28,883 nucleotides of DNA from a virus. A program made the position numbers and the translations under genes. Location of the stretch: IMG/VR virus record IMGVR_UViG_3300021373_003046, positions 1 to 28,883 of that record. One strand, 5' to 3'. Positions 4,701-15,936 of this stretch are shown one piece after another. The notes under the pieces were generated by a model. The model did not search any database and was not told the DNA's origin. It worked only from the letters and a program-made list of their open reading frames with translations. Position 1 is the stretch's first letter. Each line of letters begins with the position of its first letter.

Positions 4701-7176
4701 CTGCGATATTGAGTCTGGTGTATTCCTCCAGACGATCCAGTTTTGCTTCCAGACCAGCGATGTCTTTCATCGTGTAGTGTTTGTGTTCTACTGGCACAAA
4801 CGCGAGGTCAGTCTCATCCAGAGTGTTTGGGTTCAATGTGATCTTAAACAGATCGAGTGCATTCTCAGGTGTAGCCTTAAACTGCGGGAATTCTGCCTGT
4901 TGACCCATCAACAACTGAACGTCACCTTCCTGTGTCAGAATCAGTTTGTCTGAACGAGGTAGGTAGTAACTAACGTCTGCAGTGACGTTGTCACCAGACT
5001 TTGGAAGGTACTTTATATTGCTTATCGTGCCAAGTTGTGATGCGGAATCCCGATCAATGAAATCAGATCGGAAATCCAGATAGTTAAATAGACTAACTTC
5101 TGTTCCATCTGCAGTAACATGAGTTGGAATGTTTGAGTAACCCAATGTGTTATATGAAGACGCGGCAAAGAAGTCGCCATCTCCGTTGTGCTGCAATCGC
5201 GAATACTTGACGTAGATCTTGCCTGGAGCTGAGTCTTCACCATCAAGGATTAAACGACTACGACGATATAAATTGTCTCTCTGACCGTCATCGAATATCA
5301 TACTTGGTAGTATATTCGAACCGGAGCTAGTGAATCGACGCGCCGAGTCTACTTCATAGACATCAACGTGTGCAAATTTGTAGTAACTAACATTGTCACT
5401 GTCAATACGATATAGAGTGTCTGTGATATCATCGACCTTAGTCTTTGTTGCAATACTACCGGTCTTCTGAACATAGTAGGTGACTAAAAGATCACCACTC
5501 AACGTGTCGTTAGTGCCATTGAAATTGCTTATAACACCTGTTGAAGTATCGACATCATGAGTTATGTCAAAATTTGACACAGTAGACACAATCCAATTTG
5601 TTCCGTCAACAAATTGTTCATTGTCTGCAGAAACCAGTTCAGAAGATATATCAGCTGTTGCTACCGGAGTTCCACCCAGAGCGACTGTTACCTGCCGTTG
5701 TACTGTTAAGGTGATATCAGAGATAGACTCAAGTCTTGGTCTAGCAGTAGGCATCAACAAGTCATTTCTTTGAGTGCCATATAAGAGAGTGCCGTTCTGT
5801 GGTGTACGTGCAACTACAAGATTGTTATTCGACGTGAGACCAATGGTTTGGATGTCTTTGATTGACTCACCATCGTCGATGAATATATTTTCAACGTAAA
5901 CACGGTGTGTTGCACCAAGTTCTAAATCTGCTCTTTTCTCAATGTGTCTTACTCGACAACGGCCGATAGTATCATTCGATGGGTTGGTTGCATTTTTTGA
6001 AAGAAGAACAAAACCATCGTTAGAACCAGCACCAGTAATGTCTGGAACCAATTTACCAGATTTTATTAGAAAATAGTTACCATACTCAACCGGAACTACA
6101 TCTGATACAATTGTATCCGTCTTCTGTGGTCTTGGAACCTGCAACTTAACGGGAGTTGGATTTTCTACTCGATAACCGTTGACATATGCCATACCAGATG
6201 ATACAATAAGTTCAAGAGAGGAATCGTTTGCGACTGCGTCCTCAAAGTGAATACTGTATGGGTTGACGATATAGTCACCAGACTCTTCGTTTGTTCTTAA
6301 AGCAAGTAGATCGTTGATCTTGTTATATGCGTCTGTCTCATCGATACCCTCAACGATGGTTGAGTTCTCGATGTTCGCAAGGAATACGAACGTGTCGTCT
6401 GTACTCAAGTCTGCTTTGTCTGTCAACGTCAGTGTGATACGATATCGGTCAGCGCCTGGAGCTGCTGTGTTTGTCACACCACCGGTGTTGTCATAAAGTG
6501 AGGTATCGTCCGCAATGGTGACCACATCTTGATCGACCTTGAAACCCACTGTACCGGTAAACGATTGTGTGTATGGGCTGAGAATGATTGACTGCTTTGA
6601 TGCGTTAACGAAACGACCCAAGACGAAAAAGTCACCGGTTTCTACGTCGAGTCGGGTACCTCGACCAGAAGCGTCAGTTCCTTTCGTTACAAGTTCGTAT
6701 CCAGTTCCAGAAATATCGTTAAGTGTAACACCATCACCGAATCGTGATGGAGAACTTCCAATCGCCTCTAAACTGTCGTCGATGTATTGAATGTAAAGAG
6801 TGTTGGTGTCAAACCCCGCAGAGGTTGCCTGAATCTGCACCTGAATAACTTTAGCTGAAATACCAGTTACAGTGTCTTGAAAAACTGTCCCAATCGGAAT
6901 GTCTGCAAACGCACCACCTTGGTTGGTTGATGCAATCTTTACGTATTCGAGTGATGAATTGATTGACATACCACCAGACGAAACGGCAGCACCCTCTTTA
7001 AAGACATTACGACCCAATCTACTAATTTCTTTGTAGATAAGAGTCTGTAACTGTGTCAGTTCTCGTGCTTGTAACGCTCGACCACTGTTGAACAGTATTT
7101 GATGAAAATGTTTGTCAACATTGTAATCATCGTTATACGTTCCTTGTAGCGTATTGGATGTAAATGTGGTTGTCAT
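1738..7176 (-). CDS. Giant baseplate/tail structural protein with N-terminal DUF4815
   Basis: The product has 1,812 residues and is the largest gene here. The N-terminus has the DUF4815 signature (YNVDKHFHQILFNSGRALQ, then ARELTQLQTLIYKEI and FKEGAAV), which is common in large virion proteins of cyanophage-type T4-like phages. The middle is beta-rich with an acidic stretch (SQTDDGSDQTGSDTENDD, near residue 850) after a short coiled coil (DIAGLEAKLDRLEEYTRLNI). The C-terminal third contains PLAQSFYVDNPYGLVLTKVD, a recurrent phage structural module. It sits where T4 has the large wedge genes 7 and 10, between gp8 and fibre genes, so a peripheral wedge or fibre-attachment role is inferred. No enzyme motif was seen. 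The start is ATG 7176, 11 nt after the gp8 stop. Confidence 0.85.
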   Translation of the reverse strand: MTTTFTSNTLQGTYNDDYNVDKHFHQILFNSGRALQARELTQLQTLIYKEISRLGRNVFKEGAAVSSGGMSINSSLEYVKIASTNQGGAFADIPIGTVFQDTVTGISAKVIQVQIQATSAGFDTNTLYIQYIDDSLEAIGSSPSRFGDGVTLNDISGTGYELVTKGTDASGRGTRLDVETGDFFVLGRFVNASKQSIILSPYTQSFTGTVGFKVDQDVVTIADDTSLYDNTGGVTNTAAPGADRYRITLTLTDKADLSTDDTFVFLANIENSTIVEGIDETDAYNKINDLLALRTNEESGDYIVNPYSIHFEDAVANDSSLELIVSSGMAYVNGYRVENPTPVKLQVPRPQKTDTIVSDVVPVEYGNYFLIKSGKLVPDITGAGSNDGFVLLSKNATNPSNDTIGRCRVRHIEKRADLELGATHRVYVENIFIDDGESIKDIQTIGLTSNNNLVVARTPQNGTLLYGTQRNDLLMPTARPRLESISDITLTVQRQVTVALGGTPVATADISSELVSADNEQFVDGTNWIVSTVSNFDITHDVDTSTGVISNFNGTNDTLSGDLLVTYYVQKTGSIATKTKVDDITDTLYRIDSDNVSYYKFAHVDVYEVDSARRFTSSGSNILPSMIFDDGQRDNLYRRSRLILDGEDSAPGKIYVKYSRLQHNGDGDFFAASSYNTLGYSNIPTHVTADGTEVSLFNYLDFRSDFIDRDSASQLGTISNIKYLPKSGDNVTADVSYYLPRSDKLILTQEGDVQLLMGQQAEFPQFKATPENALDLFKITLNPNTLDETDLAFVPVEHKHYTMKDIAGLEAKLDRLEEYTRLNIAELRAFHEPSLDSAGNERVVVGSQTDDGSDQTGSDTENDDYGSSLDPESGVFQPMLDEDNVRLIYDGSLSSGVVKKGDNVYLTHTDEQWAFQELASTSVKVNPTGNSPFLGSIRLSPSSDDWKDSKTPATRTVENNRNRLDTKQAFLWNNWQWNWLGRVARGNGPEYQSTRTYDDRYQSIKEQYSTYPRETGTPRHVSRVVSSETIRHQMGDRYKDVALTPWIRSRKIYFHAKGLRPNTKFTPFFDGKDVSAFCREETTFKTWSDNTTVTIYENAGNRYGIDLNEHPEGSTELTTDANGEVIGSFFIPSNRAQSVYRRLNKADKQYPFTENRFRAGVREFQLLDINTPDWAQAGSKAFAYYVAWGGPFRFWNRWKWLRYPESVVPFSYLMNRYNTFSPKEVKDVLDKIASGDINLVDPKLAGKYGTNQAGLTAAELTTIDNDNTMSGVLSDYITLDQNRQSGGVVGPLMPAENPLAQSFYVDNPYGLVLTKVDLFFRAKDTGNLPISLTIRPVENGKPSANTVVPDSYVYKKASEITITSGSPTLSVIQGNETTFEFEEPVYLQPWTHYAICLQSASTEYEVYAAKTTENVYGSTSRTVSTQPIPGELFLPQSSTNYVGSKDTDLMFKLTRAKFSLGGGSLILTNIDLPSKELVADPIYTSLNKNFIAIRHEGHGLDVGDEITISGVEGNSGSNLNGIPISEINATHTILSKSLKSVGVQVSTAATATGFAGGTGVLNVENRTFSVANLSMENNIPKQTSLDVSAKFTTGKYVSGTTTRFTLDPQYRRITPNENIDFAKPKAIYNPTIEAGELTSNGNGGKSLFVKADFKTSNDYVSPIVDLQRASLIVAGYMMDDSDTPDLVNNVSETSPVGATGGSRHITAPVTVLEPARAIDVRADLSVPEGAGVDFYFRTAGADEDITQKPWIYQAPLNDLSVRNDGVFERQQWLAGGLGGTLDPFYKGQGKFVMKGQDNPIRVRDMNFKFLAK

Positions 7177-10407: not shown

Positions 10408-11079
10408 TTAGAATTGGTTACCAATGAGTACAAATTCGTCTTCTGTTAGTAGTGAGAACTCATCCGGATCACCTACGGTCAATAGTGAGCCTGGTAGGAT
10501 ACCAAGTTCATCCGCACGGAGTAGATCACCACCCAAGGTCACGAGTCGTTCACCTTCTGTTGTCAAAATAATCTCATCGGGTTCGACTGGTGGTGTGACC
10601 GGTAACACAACTGCCGCAGCGGTTGGTGTGTCAGTCAATCTAATTCTCAATTGATCAGAGACCTGAGAGTTAACGATTCTAAACTCAAGAACCACCGATA
10701 CACTATTGTAGTCCGGAGTCGCAACGATCTTTAGATCAAGAATCTTTGCACGTGGTTCATATCGTTGAATCGCAGACTTGATCCGCGAGACCATGAGGTC
10801 ACCGGTATTCCCGTCCATCAACTCAAACAACAAACCACTCAAGTCGCCACCAAACTGAGGGCGATATGGTTTCTCATATCTATTCGTCAATAACAGGTTC
10901 TTGATGGACTGTTTAACCGAAGCTGCATCAGTCTTGACAAGGATATCACCATCCCCGTCTGTATAGGTTGGTTCAATCCTCGCTTCTAATGACAGATCTA
11001 TATCAGAGTATAGACGCTCGCGAACGACGCGGTTACTCCGACTTAGATTGCCATCTTCACTTGAGAATATTTTTGCCAT
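10408..11079 (-). CDS. 25: Baseplate wedge protein gp25 with C-terminal extension
   Basis: The product has 223 residues. Residues 20-150 match the gp25/GPW family: YSDIDLSLEARIEP, KQSIKNLLLTNRYEKPYRPQ, FGGDLSGLLFELMD and the conserved RIKSAIQRYEPRAKILDL. Gp25 has a lysozyme-like fold without activity and is a core wedge component that helps start sheath polymerisation. T4 gp25 has only 132 residues. Here a Pro-rich linker (PVTPPVEPDE) leads to about 55 extra residues with two similar beta-like units (IILTTEGERLVTL and FSLLTEDEFVLIG). ATG 11079 is chosen over a TTG one codon earlier. A perfect late promoter lies 20 nt upstream. Confidence 0.9.
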   Translation of the reverse strand: MAKIFSSEDGNLSRSNRVVRERLYSDIDLSLEARIEPTYTDGDGDILVKTDAASVKQSIKNLLLTNRYEKPYRPQFGGDLSGLLFELMDGNTGDLMVSRIKSAIQRYEPRAKILDLKIVATPDYNSVSVVLEFRIVNSQVSDQLRIRLTDTPTAAAVVLPVTPPVEPDEIILTTEGERLVTLGGDLLRADELGILPGSLLTVGDPDEFSLLTEDEFVLIGNQF

Positions 11080-11098
11080 CAATGAAACCTTTTCTTTT

Positions 11099-11106: not shown

Positions 11107-11727
11107 TCATTCCGGTAGGATCTCTAACAACTCATTTTGAGTCTGCAGAGTATTATTGAAACTTGTCTTCAGACGATATTCATAAGATACGTCGTAGGAT
11201 TCAGGCACCTCAGGCATGGTCAAAAGAATAGATGCAACGAGTTCGTCATTGGGGTCATACGTGTCATATGCTAACTCAAGTTCTGTGTAGTTGATGTAAT
11301 CTTTCCAGAACACTGCGAGTTCATACGTTTTGACCGGATCGTTTTTTCCGTTGCGATCAATCAACTGATACCCTATACCACGACCAAACCGACGTTCCTC
11401 ATTGAAACCCCCAGGCTTCTCACCGACATATCCGGCCGACGTAAAGTCTTGATAAGGTTCATACACTCCGTCAGATACAATCAATCGGTGTTGTGCAAAC
11501 TCAGGGTTACCAATCACAGTATTCAATGCATTGGCGTGTAACACCAGATTACGTGCAACCTGCAGTCGATCTACTGGGCCTGAGAAGTCTTCATTATACA
11601 ATCGATCAAACTGAGTGCGAGATCCAATTGCACCCAAAAACTTCGCACACGTAATTCCGTTACCCAATTTGGTAGACGATGTAATCTCACCACTAGGTTT
11701 GTATTGAGGGTCAACGAGTATCTTCAT
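11107..11727 (-). CDS. Uncharacterised baseplate-module protein, possibly a degenerate peptidase-M15-like fold
   Basis: The product has 206 residues and I do not recognise it with certainty. Its layout recalls Peptidase M15_3 (D-Ala-D-Ala carboxypeptidase-type) domains: VARNLVLHANALNTVI resembles the helical 'NL..L...LN.V' segment, HRLIVSDGVYEPY the 'I.SGYRS' strand, and ELAVFWKDYINYTELELAYD the '...yi.......D.li.y' end. However, the zinc ligands of that family (HxxxxxxD and the late His) are not evident, so activity is unlikely if the resemblance is real. The gene overlaps the spike gene by 4 nt (ATGA) and precedes gp25. The place suggests a hub or spike-associated virion part. It could equally be an unrelated phage-specific wedge component. 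Confidence 0.7.
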   Translation of the reverse strand: MKILVDPQYKPSGEITSSTKLGNGITCAKFLGAIGSRTQFDRLYNEDFSGPVDRLQVARNLVLHANALNTVIGNPEFAQHRLIVSDGVYEPYQDFTSAGYVGEKPGGFNEERRFGRGIGYQLIDRNGKNDPVKTYELAVFWKDYINYTELELAYDTYDPNDELVASILLTMPEVPESYDVSYEYRLKTSFNNTLQTQNELLEILPE

Positions 11728-13184
11728 TTTGTATTTACCTTGAATCGTTTACTGCGATTGTCTGCGGGGTTGTTACCCAATAGTTCACTACCGAATCTGA
11801 CCGTTCCTTTCTTCGAAGCACTACGTCCAATGTTGGTAGGCAGATTCTTTTTGAAACTGGAATTCAGTTTACCCTCACCCACCAAGAAACTGGTAAACTC
11901 ATCATTGTCATGATTCGCACGATCACGCAACTTCGACCGTATTTCGTGTATGCTTGGATCGTGACTGAACAACTCTTTATAGTCATCGGATCGTTTGATC
12001 TTGTCCGCAAGTTCGGGGTCAACACCAATCTGTCTAATACCATACTGAGATGTAGACAACAACATTTCAGTGATGTCTGTTGTGGGTAGTGGTGCAGTGG
12101 GTTCGAGTGGGTTGTAAGGCATGATACCCTCTTTAGGTATCGCAGGCGGTAAAACGACAGTTTTAACAGCAGATGCTTTGAGTGCTTTTGCTGCGCCTTC
12201 TGCAAATTTAGCTTCTGTTGATTTCATCGCATAGTCTGCGTGAATCGCTTCTGTTGCACGACCCACAAACACACCATAGAATGTGGACAGGTTTGTGTTC
12301 TCTCCAGGCTTACCACCATAGGTATTACCGTAGTAGTCGTGATTCGGGCCACCAAATGTTCCTTTCTGACCGATTGCAGTCAACGATCTTGCCGCCATGT
12401 TGGTTGTTGATGCAGCAGATACCCATTCGTTCACCGCAGTGGTGATCAAGTCTTGACCAGTGAGAATCTCTGTGGTTGCTTCAGTCAACATATTATTGTT
12501 GCCTTTGGTGACAATGTATCGATCACCCAATACTGTGTCGACACTCTGACCAATGACCTGATTACCTCGTGTCCCCCGAATCACATAGTTCTGATCACGG
12601 TTTACGGTCTTGGTGTGTCGTCCCTTGATTTCCTCTTTCTTATCTCCTGCAACATCGATGTTGTAATCACCGCCAACAGAAACATTGAAATCACCGTCGA
12701 TACGTAGATCAACATTACCTTTGTAAACAAGATCTCCCTCTCCCTCTACGATTACCTTTGAGTCTCCACCCACGACTTCGACTCGTTGTTTGCGTGTTGA
12801 TATGAGAACAGAACCATCTGCACGGAGTTCAATCCCCGCACCTGTTCGATGTTTGATGAGAACACGTTCACCGCCTGGCGTATCGTCCATCTCGAACGAG
12901 TGACCCGATGGTGTCTCCTGTATCTGGTTGAACGGAAAGATAGACGGTTCCTGATCTGGTAGATCTAGGTCGACGCCAATATCTCCACCACCAATCGACA
13001 ACCGGTTGACCGTTTCTCCTGTGGCAGCTTTGTTGATTGATGTGTCGTAGAAGTATTCTCTCTTCGGAAACTCACCCGATGGGTCTGCGAACCCTTCGCG
13101 GGGAATACCCTCAGTAACCTCTTTACCTAGACCCGCATTATCCGTTCCAACGCGGACTCTATATTCATCTGAAAAATTCGTCAT
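11724..13184 (-). CDS. 5: Central spike protein, gp5 C-terminal/VgrG-type beta-helix
   Basis: The product has 486 residues. Residues 90-130 carry the gp5/VgrG hallmark ETPSGHSFEMDDTPGGERVL followed by KHRTGAGIELRADGSVLIS. Residues 135-245 are short repeats with V-x-G-D/I-x-G-D spacing (GNVDLRIDGDFNVSVGGDYN), expected to form the trimeric beta-helix needle that pierces the outer membrane. The last ~120 residues (HDPSIHEIRSKLRD, SFKKNLPTNIGRSASKK) are a tail seen in cyanophage-type spike proteins. T4 gp5 joins OB fold, lysozyme and needle in one chain. Here the OB/lysozyme part is encoded two genes upstream. The gene overlaps the amidase gene by 4 nt (ATGA), which suggests coupled translation and balanced amounts. 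Confidence 0.85.
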   Translation of the reverse strand: MTNFSDEYRVRVGTDNAGLGKEVTEGIPREGFADPSGEFPKREYFYDTSINKAATGETVNRLSIGGGDIGVDLDLPDQEPSIFPFNQIQETPSGHSFEMDDTPGGERVLIKHRTGAGIELRADGSVLISTRKQRVEVVGGDSKVIVEGEGDLVYKGNVDLRIDGDFNVSVGGDYNIDVAGDKKEEIKGRHTKTVNRDQNYVIRGTRGNQVIGQSVDTVLGDRYIVTKGNNNMLTEATTEILTGQDLITTAVNEWVSAASTTNMAARSLTAIGQKGTFGGPNHDYYGNTYGGKPGENTNLSTFYGVFVGRATEAIHADYAMKSTEAKFAEGAAKALKASAVKTVVLPPAIPKEGIMPYNPLEPTAPLPTTDITEMLLSTSQYGIRQIGVDPELADKIKRSDDYKELFSHDPSIHEIRSKLRDRANHDNDEFTSFLVGEGKLNSSFKKNLPTNIGRSASKKGTVRFGSELLGNNPADNRSKRFKVNTK

Positions 13185-15082
13185 GAGTTTATCTCATCTG
13201 CAGTGAATGGACTCTGTGTCTCAGGTGACGTAAACTTAGAGTCCTTGTCAAAGTTTGCTTTTACGTATGCACGAACGTCAAAGCCTGGATCATTCGTCAA
13301 GAGATCAATGTCACTGTGACCAAGGATCTGACCGCCAGGCCATACAGCATAAAATGATCGACAGAAGTGATCAAATGTGTTAAACTGTGAACGTGTCAAG
13401 GATCTAACCGATATAAAGTCTTCAAGGTTTCTTGTCTCGCTGGGAACATTGATACCACCGATAAACACAATTGCAATACTGCGAGAGTCGTGTCCGTTGT
13501 TGGATGCGTGTTGACCTTGAAGATTTACAGGGCGACCTCGTTGCAAAGAACCATCTCGACGAATGATATAGTGATATCCAATTCCATTAAGACCAGCATC
13601 AAGGTGAATGTCGTTGATCTCTTCACTTCCTATGTTCTTGTTAGTCGGAGTTTCACTCCAGTGCACCACGACTTCTGTGATGTCACGAGTGACCTCTTTC
13701 AGTTCTGCCTGCAGTTCCTCGACTGAAGATATGTAGGGGAACACCGGATCACCTTGACCACCATTCCATTCGTCTGCATACGAACCGATCACATAAGGTT
13801 CATCGAACACTGGTTGATCAATCTCTGGTTCCAGTGCGGTCGTGATAGTGGTGTCAATCTGACGTAGTCGACTTTGAATCAACGAGTTATCAATATTGAT
13901 TTTATTCCTTATCAAATCCACAGCACGACTAAAATCTGTAGGATTACCTTGCGACAAATTGATTACACTGTTTAGTTCTGTTCTACTGAGTTTCTTAGGT
14001 GCGACTAATTCCTGCAGATCATTTGCAACCGTGGTGAATGTGTCCGCACTCAAAGATTGTACAACACCCACCTCGCCATCACCCGCAACACGAGAGGCAA
14101 TCGTGTTAACTTTTTCTGTCGCAAGTTCTTGATATTTGTCACGCAACTGTTGTTGTGTGCGTATAGATTTGATGACCTCAACCCCATCCTTTCCACCGGT
14201 CAAGTCAGAGAAATCTGCAGAACCGGCAGCCAAGTTTGCCTTTGTCTCTTTGTCCTTTGTAACCAATGACTGCAGAGTCGCGAGAGGTTTGTCCTTGACA
14301 TTCTGAATCGCAGCATTAAACTCACCAAGGTTTGCGGTTCGTGCATCTACCTCCGCTACCTGTGTTATCGCACCTGAAACCACTTCTCCAAAATTGGGTT
14401 GAGTTGAATCTGCTTCGATTAGACTTGTATCAATGTATTGCACTCGGCGGTTGATGTCCGCTCCTGCACCGGTCGCTTCAAGAACATCGGTGACACTCGT
14501 AATGGTATCACTTGCAAGAGAGTTGATTGTCTCGCTGGTAAACGCACCGATTTTACCTTCGACTCGTGTGACTGCTTTGAGTAGTCCATCTGGTGATGCA
14601 TCAAGAACCTGTTTTTGCAGGTTTCCACCACCCACATCAAGGCCTGTAATTTGTTTTAGAACATCTGAGATGGTACTACCGCCTCCGGTTGGTTCGAGAG
14701 AACTTGTGTCCGGAACCTGAATAGACATACCATTACCAAGATCTAATGACGTGAAACTAATCTGTATCTTTGATGTAGTAGGTGCCGTGACATTGCCAAT
14801 CAACTCATCAACCATGTTGGTCGCGAGATTATCGATACTCTTTGACGTTTCGTTCAGTAACCCTTCGGTAGTTGTGTTGTTCAGTTTATTCTGAAACTTA
14901 TCGAACTTTGATGTGAGAGACTGCACTCCGCCTTTGACTTCGTTTGCAATGCCACCGACCTGTGTCTCAAGTGCATCCTTTTGTGCATTGATTGCCTGTT
15001 GTGCCTGAGCTCTTACATCAACCTCACCAAGTAGACCTTGATTGTCCTTGATGGTGTTTATTAATTTGTCTTTATTGTTCAT
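13181..15082 (-). CDS. Coiled-coil virion protein with C-terminal zinc N-acetylmuramoyl-L-alanine amidase
   Basis: The product has 633 residues. Residues 1-440 are hydrophilic and largely helical (QAQQAINAQKDALETQVGG, KFDKFQNKLN), probably coiled coil. Residues 468-625 form an amidase_2/PGRP domain: EVVVHWSETPTNKNIGS, GIGYHYIIRRDGSLQRGRPV, GQHASNN, SIAIVFIGG, ILGHSDIDLLTNDPGFDVR. The zinc ligands would be His474, His589 and Asp598, the His-His-Asp set of AmpD rather than the His-His-Cys of T7 lysozyme. Tyr503 matches T7 Tyr46. The T7 Lys128/AmpD Lys162 position is Thr596. The domain cuts the bond between muramic acid and the peptide. Its place between the OB/lysozyme-like gene and the spike gene implies a tail-hub enzyme used during injection rather than a holin-dependent endolysin. 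Confidence 0.88.
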   Translation of the reverse strand: MNNKDKLINTIKDNQGLLGEVDVRAQAQQAINAQKDALETQVGGIANEVKGGVQSLTSKFDKFQNKLNNTTTEGLLNETSKSIDNLATNMVDELIGNVTAPTTSKIQISFTSLDLGNGMSIQVPDTSSLEPTGGGSTISDVLKQITGLDVGGGNLQKQVLDASPDGLLKAVTRVEGKIGAFTSETINSLASDTITSVTDVLEATGAGADINRRVQYIDTSLIEADSTQPNFGEVVSGAITQVAEVDARTANLGEFNAAIQNVKDKPLATLQSLVTKDKETKANLAAGSADFSDLTGGKDGVEVIKSIRTQQQLRDKYQELATEKVNTIASRVAGDGEVGVVQSLSADTFTTVANDLQELVAPKKLSRTELNSVINLSQGNPTDFSRAVDLIRNKINIDNSLIQSRLRQIDTTITTALEPEIDQPVFDEPYVIGSYADEWNGGQGDPVFPYISSVEELQAELKEVTRDITEVVVHWSETPTNKNIGSEEINDIHLDAGLNGIGYHYIIRRDGSLQRGRPVNLQGQHASNNGHDSRSIAIVFIGGINVPSETRNLEDFISVRSLTRSQFNTFDHFCRSFYAVWPGGQILGHSDIDLLTNDPGFDVRAYVKANFDKDSKFTSPETQSPFTADEINS

Positions 15083-15936
15083 TTAAACACCTCATCATAT
15101 GCAGTCTGTGCGAGGTTATCCGTTCGATTTGTTGTGAAAAGATAATAACTGTTGATCACCTGACTCGCAGTCTTGATGTCATTCGTATTTAGCAGTCGAC
15201 GATTAGCTGCACTAAATCGATTACGCAACTCAAAGAGGACATACTGTAACTGTAGAGAATAAGTCCTCCAATCCGTCACCGGTTGAAAACTTTGTGAGAA
15301 CAATAACAGTCCATTGAATCGAGAACCTACGTCACGAGTTCTATCCCATGCAGCGATACCAACCTTTGTTTCTGTTGTGCCAGAAACTCCGGTCAACAAG
15401 AACTCAGATGCGCCCTGCAATCCACCGGTGATCGCAGCTGCGTGAATCAGAGAATACCCGTTGTCTATGAAAAACTTCATTGACTGTTGACGACGTAGTT
15501 GTGTATCTGCTTGAACCTCTCCATCGTCTGCGAATCTTTCAACCACACTGTTTTGTAGTCTGCTAGTCTCACTGGACACACCAATTCGACTACGTTGAAT
15601 CTTAGACGGAAACTCTGTGTGAGGAATAGAACCCAAGACCAACGGAATCTGCGACATTGCACCGTCAAGGAATACACCGAAAACGAATGCACCCGCAAGT
15701 AACTGAGGCACACGACCATAACCACTGACCCCACCTTCTGTCGCGGGTATGACTACCTGTGCCCATGGCAAATCTTTTTCGGGGATTTGACCGGTATCCG
15801 GATTATGTACACCACGAATACGCACCTTGACTCTACCCTCAAGTCCAGCAGGTGGTGATGCGTTGATAACTGTACCGAAAAACCATCGGTAGTCATCACC
15901 GTAAAATTCTTTCTGTATGGGTCTTAGTATATTCAT
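15079..15936 (-). CDS. 5: gp5-type hub OB-fold protein with phage-lysozyme2-like C-terminal domain
   Basis: The product has 285 residues. Residues 15-105 match the gp5/VgrG OB domain (FFGTVINASPPAGLEGRVKV, RIRGVHNPDTGQIPEKDLPW, AGAFVFGVFLDGAMSQIPLV, LGSIPH), the collar that sits on the gp27 ring. Residues 150-240 resemble the phage tail lysozyme family (Phage_lysozyme2): QSMKFFIDNGYSLIHAAAIT, GGLQGASEF, GIAAWDRTR, LQLQYVLFELRNRF. In that family the box is usually G-N-L-x-x-E-S with catalytic Glu; here the aligned residue is Ala176 and a Glu is at 178, so activity is uncertain. It overlaps the gp27-like gene and the amidase gene by 4 nt each, in line with a shared hub complex. Confidence 0.85.
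   Translation of the reverse strand: MNILRPIQKEFYGDDYRWFFGTVINASPPAGLEGRVKVRIRGVHNPDTGQIPEKDLPWAQVVIPATEGGVSGYGRVPQLLAGAFVFGVFLDGAMSQIPLVLGSIPHTEFPSKIQRSRIGVSSETSRLQNSVVERFADDGEVQADTQLRRQQSMKFFIDNGYSLIHAAAITGGLQGASEFLLTGVSGTTETKVGIAAWDRTRDVGSRFNGLLLFSQSFQPVTDWRTYSLQLQYVLFELRNRFSAANRRLLNTNDIKTASQVINSYYLFTTNRTDNLAQTAYDEVFK

Follow-up and report, generated by a model that had tools for sequence, protein, structure and literature searches.

In phage T4, gp5 combines an OB fold, a lysozyme and a needle. It is cleaved between the lysozyme and the needle, and the lysozyme is thought to be active after the needle dissociates (excerpts of PMC3004832). Spackle, a superinfection-exclusion protein of T4, inhibits the gp5 lysozyme (PMC7677548). 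Here we describe a cassette of three genes from the viral record IMGVR_UViG_3300021373_003046 in IMG/VR, whose 28,883 nucleotides we call the window. P0003 joins an OB fold to a phi29 gp13-type lysozyme domain (Phage_lysozyme2, PF18013; hereafter Lys2), P0001 is a gp5-like needle protein, and the gene between them encodes P0002, which ends in a zinc amidase domain. In the window's lineage, the Lys2 domain has lost its catalytic residues and the amidase looks intact. What is new here is that a related lineage has the mirrored catalytic state. In our searches of open-licence papers, judged from listings except for the four papers cited here, we found no report of a reciprocal loss of these two sites.

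The two types of wall-lytic domain have been seen together elsewhere. The type VI secretion system (T6SS) effector TseP combines amidase and lysozyme activities in one protein. Like the window's cassette, it has amidase and lysozyme domains and is linked to a contractile machine, which delivers it, and its amidase part is also structural; but it is a single bacterial protein, and both of its activities have been demonstrated (excerpts of PMC11893102). Enterococcal tail endopeptidases have PF18013 plus a predicted amidase domain (excerpts of PMC10194240).

Some phage hubs are also similar. Gp5 of Caulobacter phage Cr30 has an OB fold, a lysozyme2 domain and a needle, as in the window, but in one polypeptide and with the catalytic motif intact. 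Its C-terminus resembles that of its relative L102 (48% identity over the protein), which has a sub-threshold match to M15 peptidases (21.1 bits); Cr30 gp5 itself has no M15 match in Pfam. In Methylophilales phage Melnitz, gp5 is split into an OB-plus-lytic protein and a needle protein, as in the window, but there are only two genes, with VanY/M15-type matches below the Pfam cut-offs and no amidase gene between them. Two lytic types probably share a hub in both L102 and Melnitz (the second domains are below the Pfam cut-offs). More broadly, other phages have swapped the domain beside the OB fold: it is CHAP in Rhizobium phage N34, a sub-cut-off VanY-like match in Melnitz, and lysozyme2 in Cr30.

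A degenerate lysozyme domain beside an apparently intact amidase

Like gp5-gp27 of T4, the window's hub genes encode a gp27-like protein, an OB collar, a needle, and a wall-lytic-type domain beside the OB fold. But the OB fold and the needle are on separate genes, the lytic domain is degenerate and belongs to another family, and a zinc amidase protein is encoded between them. P0003 shares the N-terminal OB domain of T4 gp5, without the C-terminal triple beta-helix or the GH24 lysozyme on the same polypeptide. An original prediction, made from the window's DNA without database searches, was that the roles of T4 gp5 are spread over three genes. The split between OB fold and needle stands (P0001 has its own gene and matches gp5 families in PHROG), but the amidase has no role in T4 gp5, so we would describe the arrangement as two genes with a third added.

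Both domains of P0003 have Pfam matches above the cut-offs (Gp5_OB, 28.4 bits versus 25; PF18013, 34.9 bits versus 28.2), so the OB fold is joined to a lysozyme2-like domain as predicted. The OB sequence also matches T4 gp5 chains (1pdl and 1k28) and the spike 9f4a. In the AlphaFold (AF2) model, the OB part is poor (blocks of about 45-68), and the ten-residue blocks from residue 141 onward score 81-94, with one block at 62. The best structural match to the modelled Lys2 domain is the lysozyme domain of phi29 gp13, with VIA-align Z scores of 15.2 and 15.1 to 3csq and 3csr over 140-141 residues (2.7 Å for 3csr), and the runner-up is far lower (Z of 9.3). When we searched with the Lys2 domain alone, we found two matches in named phages, both weak.

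Although the fold and the Pfam score are those of the phi29 gp13 family, the catalytic Glu, Asn and Gln are missing from the window. The OB-linked Lys2 of Cr30 has the motifs GNLVHES and GYGWAQW, and the window has GGLQGAS and VGIAAW instead, with Gly172 at the Asn position, Ala176 at the Glu position, and Ala for the Gln of the AQW (GIAQW) motif. Among 51 Lys2 sequences, including the window's, 48 lack the Glu: the residue is A in 16, V in 13, Q in 5, I in 5, T in 3, K in 3, E in 3, and R, S or C in one each. The Asn position is A in 44 and G in 7, and the Gln is retained in 6. A working glycosidase module is therefore unlikely, to judge from these sequences: the fold is kept and the catalytic site is lost. 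We also considered that Glu178 might be a substitute acidic residue, but it is found in none of the other rows listed for the window's lineage. Nor does P0003 seem to contain a T4-type (GH24) lysozyme, as PF18013 and Gp5_OB are its only Pfam matches at E up to 1.

P0002 has the only PF01510 (Amidase_2) match in the whole record (residues 466-600, 35.8 bits versus a cut-off of 26). The amidase model matches T7 lysozyme (1lba, 4.4e-6), the clostridial amidase LysC, and PGRP-LB in Foldseek. The domain has the profile, the fold, the His/His/Asp triad and the Tyr of the T7 lysozyme/AmpD/PGRP family; Tyr503 is presumably the equivalent of Tyr46 of T7 lysozyme in its role, and we take Asp598 to be the AmpD-type Asp. 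It differs from these proteins in being at the C-terminus of a 633-residue hub-cassette protein, and a Lys/Thr position near the third zinc ligand is not conserved in its family. The amidase looks intact and is predicted to be an active enzyme. The original prediction described P0002 as a coiled-coil protein with an amidase end. The amidase is confirmed but the coiled coil is not: the N-terminal 430 residues or so are predicted, with low confidence, to be mostly helical with some strands, and the model is poor beyond the amidase (mean pLDDT 65).

Two wall-lytic domain types thus do sit in one hub-type cassette. But the suggestion that both modules work, one glycosidase-like and one amide-cutting, is not supported, as the Lys2 domain has lost its catalytic site. 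The other suggestion, that the first enzyme was replaced by the second, is supported by the combination of a degenerate Lys2 with an intact amidase triad, and agrees better with the data than a pair of active enzymes does.

A related lineage has the opposite catalytic states

We refer to the window's lineage, with degenerate Lys2, as clade A. Clade B is a related lineage whose genes are in the same order and whose Lys2 is intact. We found clade B by searching with the OB protein of phage C48C1 and then with an alignment of intermediate sequences. We fetched 328 loci (several contigs more than once), and 217 contain both the OB and amidase genes. We set aside ten loci, nearly all from named phages, and omitted genes that were truncated at the 3' end, pairs that were exact duplicates, and OB proteins of under 255 amino acids (the C48C1-like lineage, which has no Lys2). 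This left 117 distinct complete cassettes to count. The window is outside the 117, and the members L112 and L325 are cut at the 5' end of the OB gene.

The amidase gene directly follows the OB gene in all 117 cassettes, where the two overlap by up to 38 nt or are separated by at most 5 nt (using longest-frame starts), and the needle gene is next in 115, which is every cassette where one was found. Because the order is kept so consistently, it is not due to chance.

Lys2 is degenerate in 60 of the 117 cassettes, and the amidase triad is intact in all 60. (Of these, 55 lack the Glu and 5 have it but lack the Asn and the Gln.) The other 57 have an intact Lys2, with a broken amidase triad in 56: no zinc ligands are left in 47 and one is left in 9. 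The remaining cassette, L322, has His/His/Cys. No cassette lacks both sites. The window itself has a degenerate Lys2 and an intact triad, and L253, from a metagenome-assembled genome (MAG) contig titled Thiotrichaceae, groups with clade A by both state and position. Since the sequences are related, the count of 117 is not a significance test; the reciprocal pattern is essentially one phylogenetic contrast rather than 117 events.

Sequence profiles show the same contrast. The Asn, Glu and Gln of Lys2 are retained in all ten clade-B sequences of alignment A4, and five clade-B proteins score 68.5-100.9 bits against Phage_lysozyme2, versus 34.9 for the window, 40.0 for L253 and 44.4 for L042. Conversely, three clade-A proteins score 35.8, 44.2 and 43.2 bits against Amidase_2, while among nine clade-B proteins, L243 scores 18 bits, L322 scores 19.4, and seven have no match. 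The core of the clade-B amidase-like domain (HY-I--DG-IQRGRP) is mostly kept, but the zinc ligands and the Tyr are lost. The amidase proteins of the two clades are nevertheless homologous, as their profiles align across both the domain and the sequence on either side of it (hhalign, 99.8% over 225 columns, with five clade-B sequences).

To estimate constraint, we computed dN/dS from close pairs (26 in clade A and 64 in clade B; the pairs are pooled and are not independent). In clade A, dN/dS was 0.052 for OB, 0.093 for Lys2 and 0.074 for the amidase; in clade B, it was 0.131 for OB, 0.212 for Lys2 and 0.254 for the amidase-like domain. Within each clade, the highest value is for the domain that lost its site, yet it is far below 1. 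Because these domains remain constrained, the data point to a structural or binding role for them.

Clade A is monophyletic in all three of our trees (FastTree support of 0.983-0.992; a separate maximum-likelihood tree has no support values). The OB+needle tree recovers a monophyletic clade B (0.893), whereas the gp27+OB and three-gene trees do not and instead nest clade A within it. The Lys2 state changes once on the trees, and the triad changes once (the two trees without L322) or twice (the OB+needle tree, with L322). The tree of the amidase domain did not distinguish vertical descent from replacement.

Proposed role of the cassette

We think it fairly probable that the cassette encodes the cell-puncturing hub of a marine T4-like myovirus, with the amidase as the working wall enzyme and the dead Lys2 domain kept as a scaffold or wall-binder. 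By analogy with T4, P0003 would be the OB collar beneath the gp27-like ring, and P0001 would be the needle. These would be made as separate proteins, and the cutting of the wall would pass to the amidase of P0002. In principle, the gene split makes a T4-type maturation cleavage between lysozyme and needle unnecessary. The helical N-terminal part of P0002 most likely anchors the amidase on the hub, and once contraction pushes the hub into the periplasm, the zinc amidase would cut the MurNAc-L-Ala bond. The Lys2 domain, without the catalytic Glu and its partner residues, would persist as a structural or wall-binding part. With the same cassette, clade B would have made the opposite choice, keeping Lys2 intact while the zinc site of the amidase was destroyed.

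Several points weigh against our proposal. We infer from gene order that P0002 is in the virion, and from synteny only that it is docked on the hub. Five of the 60 clade-A cassettes have Glu at the catalytic position of Lys2. L322, in clade B, has an intact Lys2 as well as a plausible His/His/Cys triad, with the Tyr changed to Trp, and may have both sites. The residue two before Asp598 (Thr596 in the window), which we take to correspond to Lys128 of T7 lysozyme and Thr158 of PGRP-LB, varies in clade A (E in 28, T in 14, N in 13, A in 4 and Q in 1 of 60). In five free-standing phage amidases, this position is Lys in four and Thr in one. And in the trees, one or two phylogenetic events account for the whole reciprocal pattern.

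If both modules worked, with Lys2 relying on another acidic residue, then the hub would cut both glycan and amide bonds. The retained fold, the Pfam score above the cut-off, the five cassettes with Glu, and the probable existence of other hubs with two lytic domains are all compatible with this. But it seems very unlikely, given the ten different residues at the Glu site across 51 sequences, the A or G at the Asn position in every one of them, the scarcity of the Gln (6 of 51), and the restriction of Glu178 to the window among the rows listed. Alternatively, neither domain might be active in clade A, and the amidase might merely bind peptidoglycan, as do the non-catalytic PGRPs; the variable Lys/Thr position fits this, and PGRPs are among the structural matches. 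However, none of the 60 clade-A cassettes varies at the three zinc ligands or at Tyr503, while these positions are scattered in clade B, and a domain that only binds would have no need of the triad, so we consider this improbable. It is similarly unlikely that P0002 is not a hub protein at all, but a late lysis amidase or an injected protein that is encoded among hub genes. Its amidase domain matches named-phage proteins of which many are annotated as endolysins, lysozymes or amidases. But in 115 of 117 cassettes the gene is flanked by the OB and needle genes (no needle was found in the other two), and its junctions range from a 38-nt overlap to a 12-nt gap; the protein has a long N-terminal part that is not present in free-standing amidases; and clade B retains it after loss of the catalytic site, which would not be expected of an endolysin.

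As to how the two states arose, we tentatively suggest, at somewhat less than an even chance, a catalytic see-saw: the ancestral hub had two working wall enzymes that differed in chemistry, and each daughter lineage kept one site while the other domain became non-catalytic. The hub would then change which bond it cuts without changing its architecture, and L322 would be a surviving two-enzyme form. Escape from inhibitors of one chemistry, such as Spackle, might drive the see-saw, but this is only a suggestion. Alternatively, recombination might have brought a fresh amidase domain into clade A, and the decay of Lys2 would have followed. The amidase domain of L001 (clade A) is as close to the five free-standing phage amidases (35-40% identity) as to L322 (34.5%), and the nesting of clade A within clade B in two trees also fits. 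But the two clades share the flanks of the domain and the cassette, L322 has a nearly intact site within clade B, and the OB+needle tree supports clade B as a single group. A fresh domain is possible, but we are inclined to doubt it.

Whichever history is correct, the two lineages are a natural experiment that bears on the number and the kind of wall-cutting chemistries required by a contractile hub. They suggest that lytic domains can be retained for structural reasons after catalysis is lost. A Pfam match above the cut-off ("Phage tail lysozyme") is apparently a non-catalytic relic in one lineage, and the neighboring domain is apparently a relic in the other. As tail lysins are usually listed from domain matches, this is a caution against naming them by fold alone.

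Gene layout and the needle

The coordinates of the cassette, its key residues and other genes mentioned here are in Table 1. Each adjacent pair among the three genes overlaps by 4 nt, as predicted from the open reading frames, and the chain of 4-nt overlaps extends to the gp27-like P0004 upstream and to P0005 downstream.

Table 1. Positions in the window of the hub genes, domains and catalytic-site residues
Feature	Positions	Strand	Evidence
P0003, OB + Phage_lysozyme2 protein, 285 aa	15079..15936	-	Pfam, AF2 model
Gp5-type OB domain, P0003 residues 1-107	15616..15936	-	Gp5_OB 28.4 bits
Phage_lysozyme2 (phi29 gp13-type) domain, P0003 residues 143-285, catalytic site degenerate	15082..15510	-	PF18013
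Ala176 codon, catalytic Glu position of intact relatives	15409..15411	-	alignment to Cr30 VHES motif and family
P0002, helical protein with C-terminal amidase, 633 aa	13181..15082	-	Pfam, structure model
Amidase_2 zinc amidase domain, P0002 residues 466-611	13250..13687	-	PF01510, Foldseek
His474, zinc ligand 1	13661..13663	-	H in 58/60 rows, gap in 2; 60/60 clade-A cassettes
Tyr503, catalytic Tyr	13574..13576	-	60/60
His589, zinc ligand 2	13316..13318	-	60/60
Asp598, zinc ligand 3	13289..13291	-	60/60
P0001, gp5-like needle protein, 486 aa, post-OB linker + needle repeats	11724..13184	-	PHROG, BLASTP
P0004, gp27-like hub protein, 452 aa	15933..17291	-	phrog_350 'tail protein' 1.3e-28
P0005, 206-aa protein conserved after needle	11107..11727	-	without Pfam or PHROG match
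P0006, gp25-like wedge protein	10408..11082	-	PF04965 7.5e-13
P0016, tape measure candidate, 698 aa	22121..24217	+	phrog_58 5.3e-11, phrog_1272, phrog_1535

These genes belong to a T4-type tail module with tube cap, gp53, gp27-like, the cassette, P0005, gp25 and gp6 on the minus strand, where the gp27-like label comes from that gene's place before the OB gene. On the plus strand, the module encodes head closure, DNA end protector, tail tube and hub proteins and the tape measure candidate. We considered that P0002 might be the tape measure, but it has no tape measure match in PHROG at E up to 0.1, and P0016 has matches to tape measure families; P0002 is probably not the tape measure, and P0016 is the better candidate.

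P0001 falls below the Pfam cut-offs (Gp5_trimer_C, 24 bits versus 30.9), but it matches gp5 families in PHROG (phrog_430, 5.3e-27 over residues 83-271) and the needle protein of Melnitz (BLASTP, 2e-19). The latter match starts at the post-OB linker motif, and the N-terminus of P0001 is the linker that succeeds the OB fold in other gp5 proteins.

P0005 matches nothing in Pfam (E up to 1), in PHROG (E up to 0.1) or in the named-phage collection. In 22 of the 57 clade-B cassettes (such as L276, L283 and L331), its homologues are joined to the C-terminus of the needle, which suggests that P0005 sits on the needle.

The order of OB+Lys2, amidase and needle genes recurs in viral loci matched by P0003 and P0002, as far as the loci extend and among the matches listed. 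No named-phage record matches P0002 across 80% of its length, and among the matches listed (1419 and 1584 records matched) we recognized the three-gene cassette in no named phage, although records near the window may be missing from the collection. By gp6, the top named phage is C48C1 (39.8% identity). Its hub differs: one 196-aa gene has the OB fold and a short needle, and it is followed by genes for 76-aa and 451-aa proteins, the latter without a Pfam or PHROG match. In some C48C1-like hubs, namely L187 (6708-8057), L190 (6698-7999) and L237 (6699-8048), an additional protein of 433-449 aa is encoded after the OB/needle gene and before the gene of the 451-aa type; in L187, it has coiled-coil matches and a Phage_tail_C match.

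We also noticed some irregular or misleading gene models. In L083 (3792-4304), the OB+Lys2 frame ends early, at about residue 164, due to a mutation or a sequencing error, and the following genes are present. Gp5 of Pelagibacter phage HTVC008M (L099, 4848-5900) is named a tail lysozyme; in Pfam it has an OB fold but no lytic domain. The hub cluster of Pseudomonas phage Milchi includes an "endolysin" (L097, 8946-9950) that is in fact a PAAR protein; its match to M15 peptidases falls just under the cut-off, so it is possibly a spike-tip lysin. In Rhizobium phage RHph_N34 (L096, 6989-7873), the gp5 frame that begins at 6989 encodes an OB and a CHAP domain, and the annotated start at 7106 omits its first 39 residues, which are part of the stretch that matches OB.

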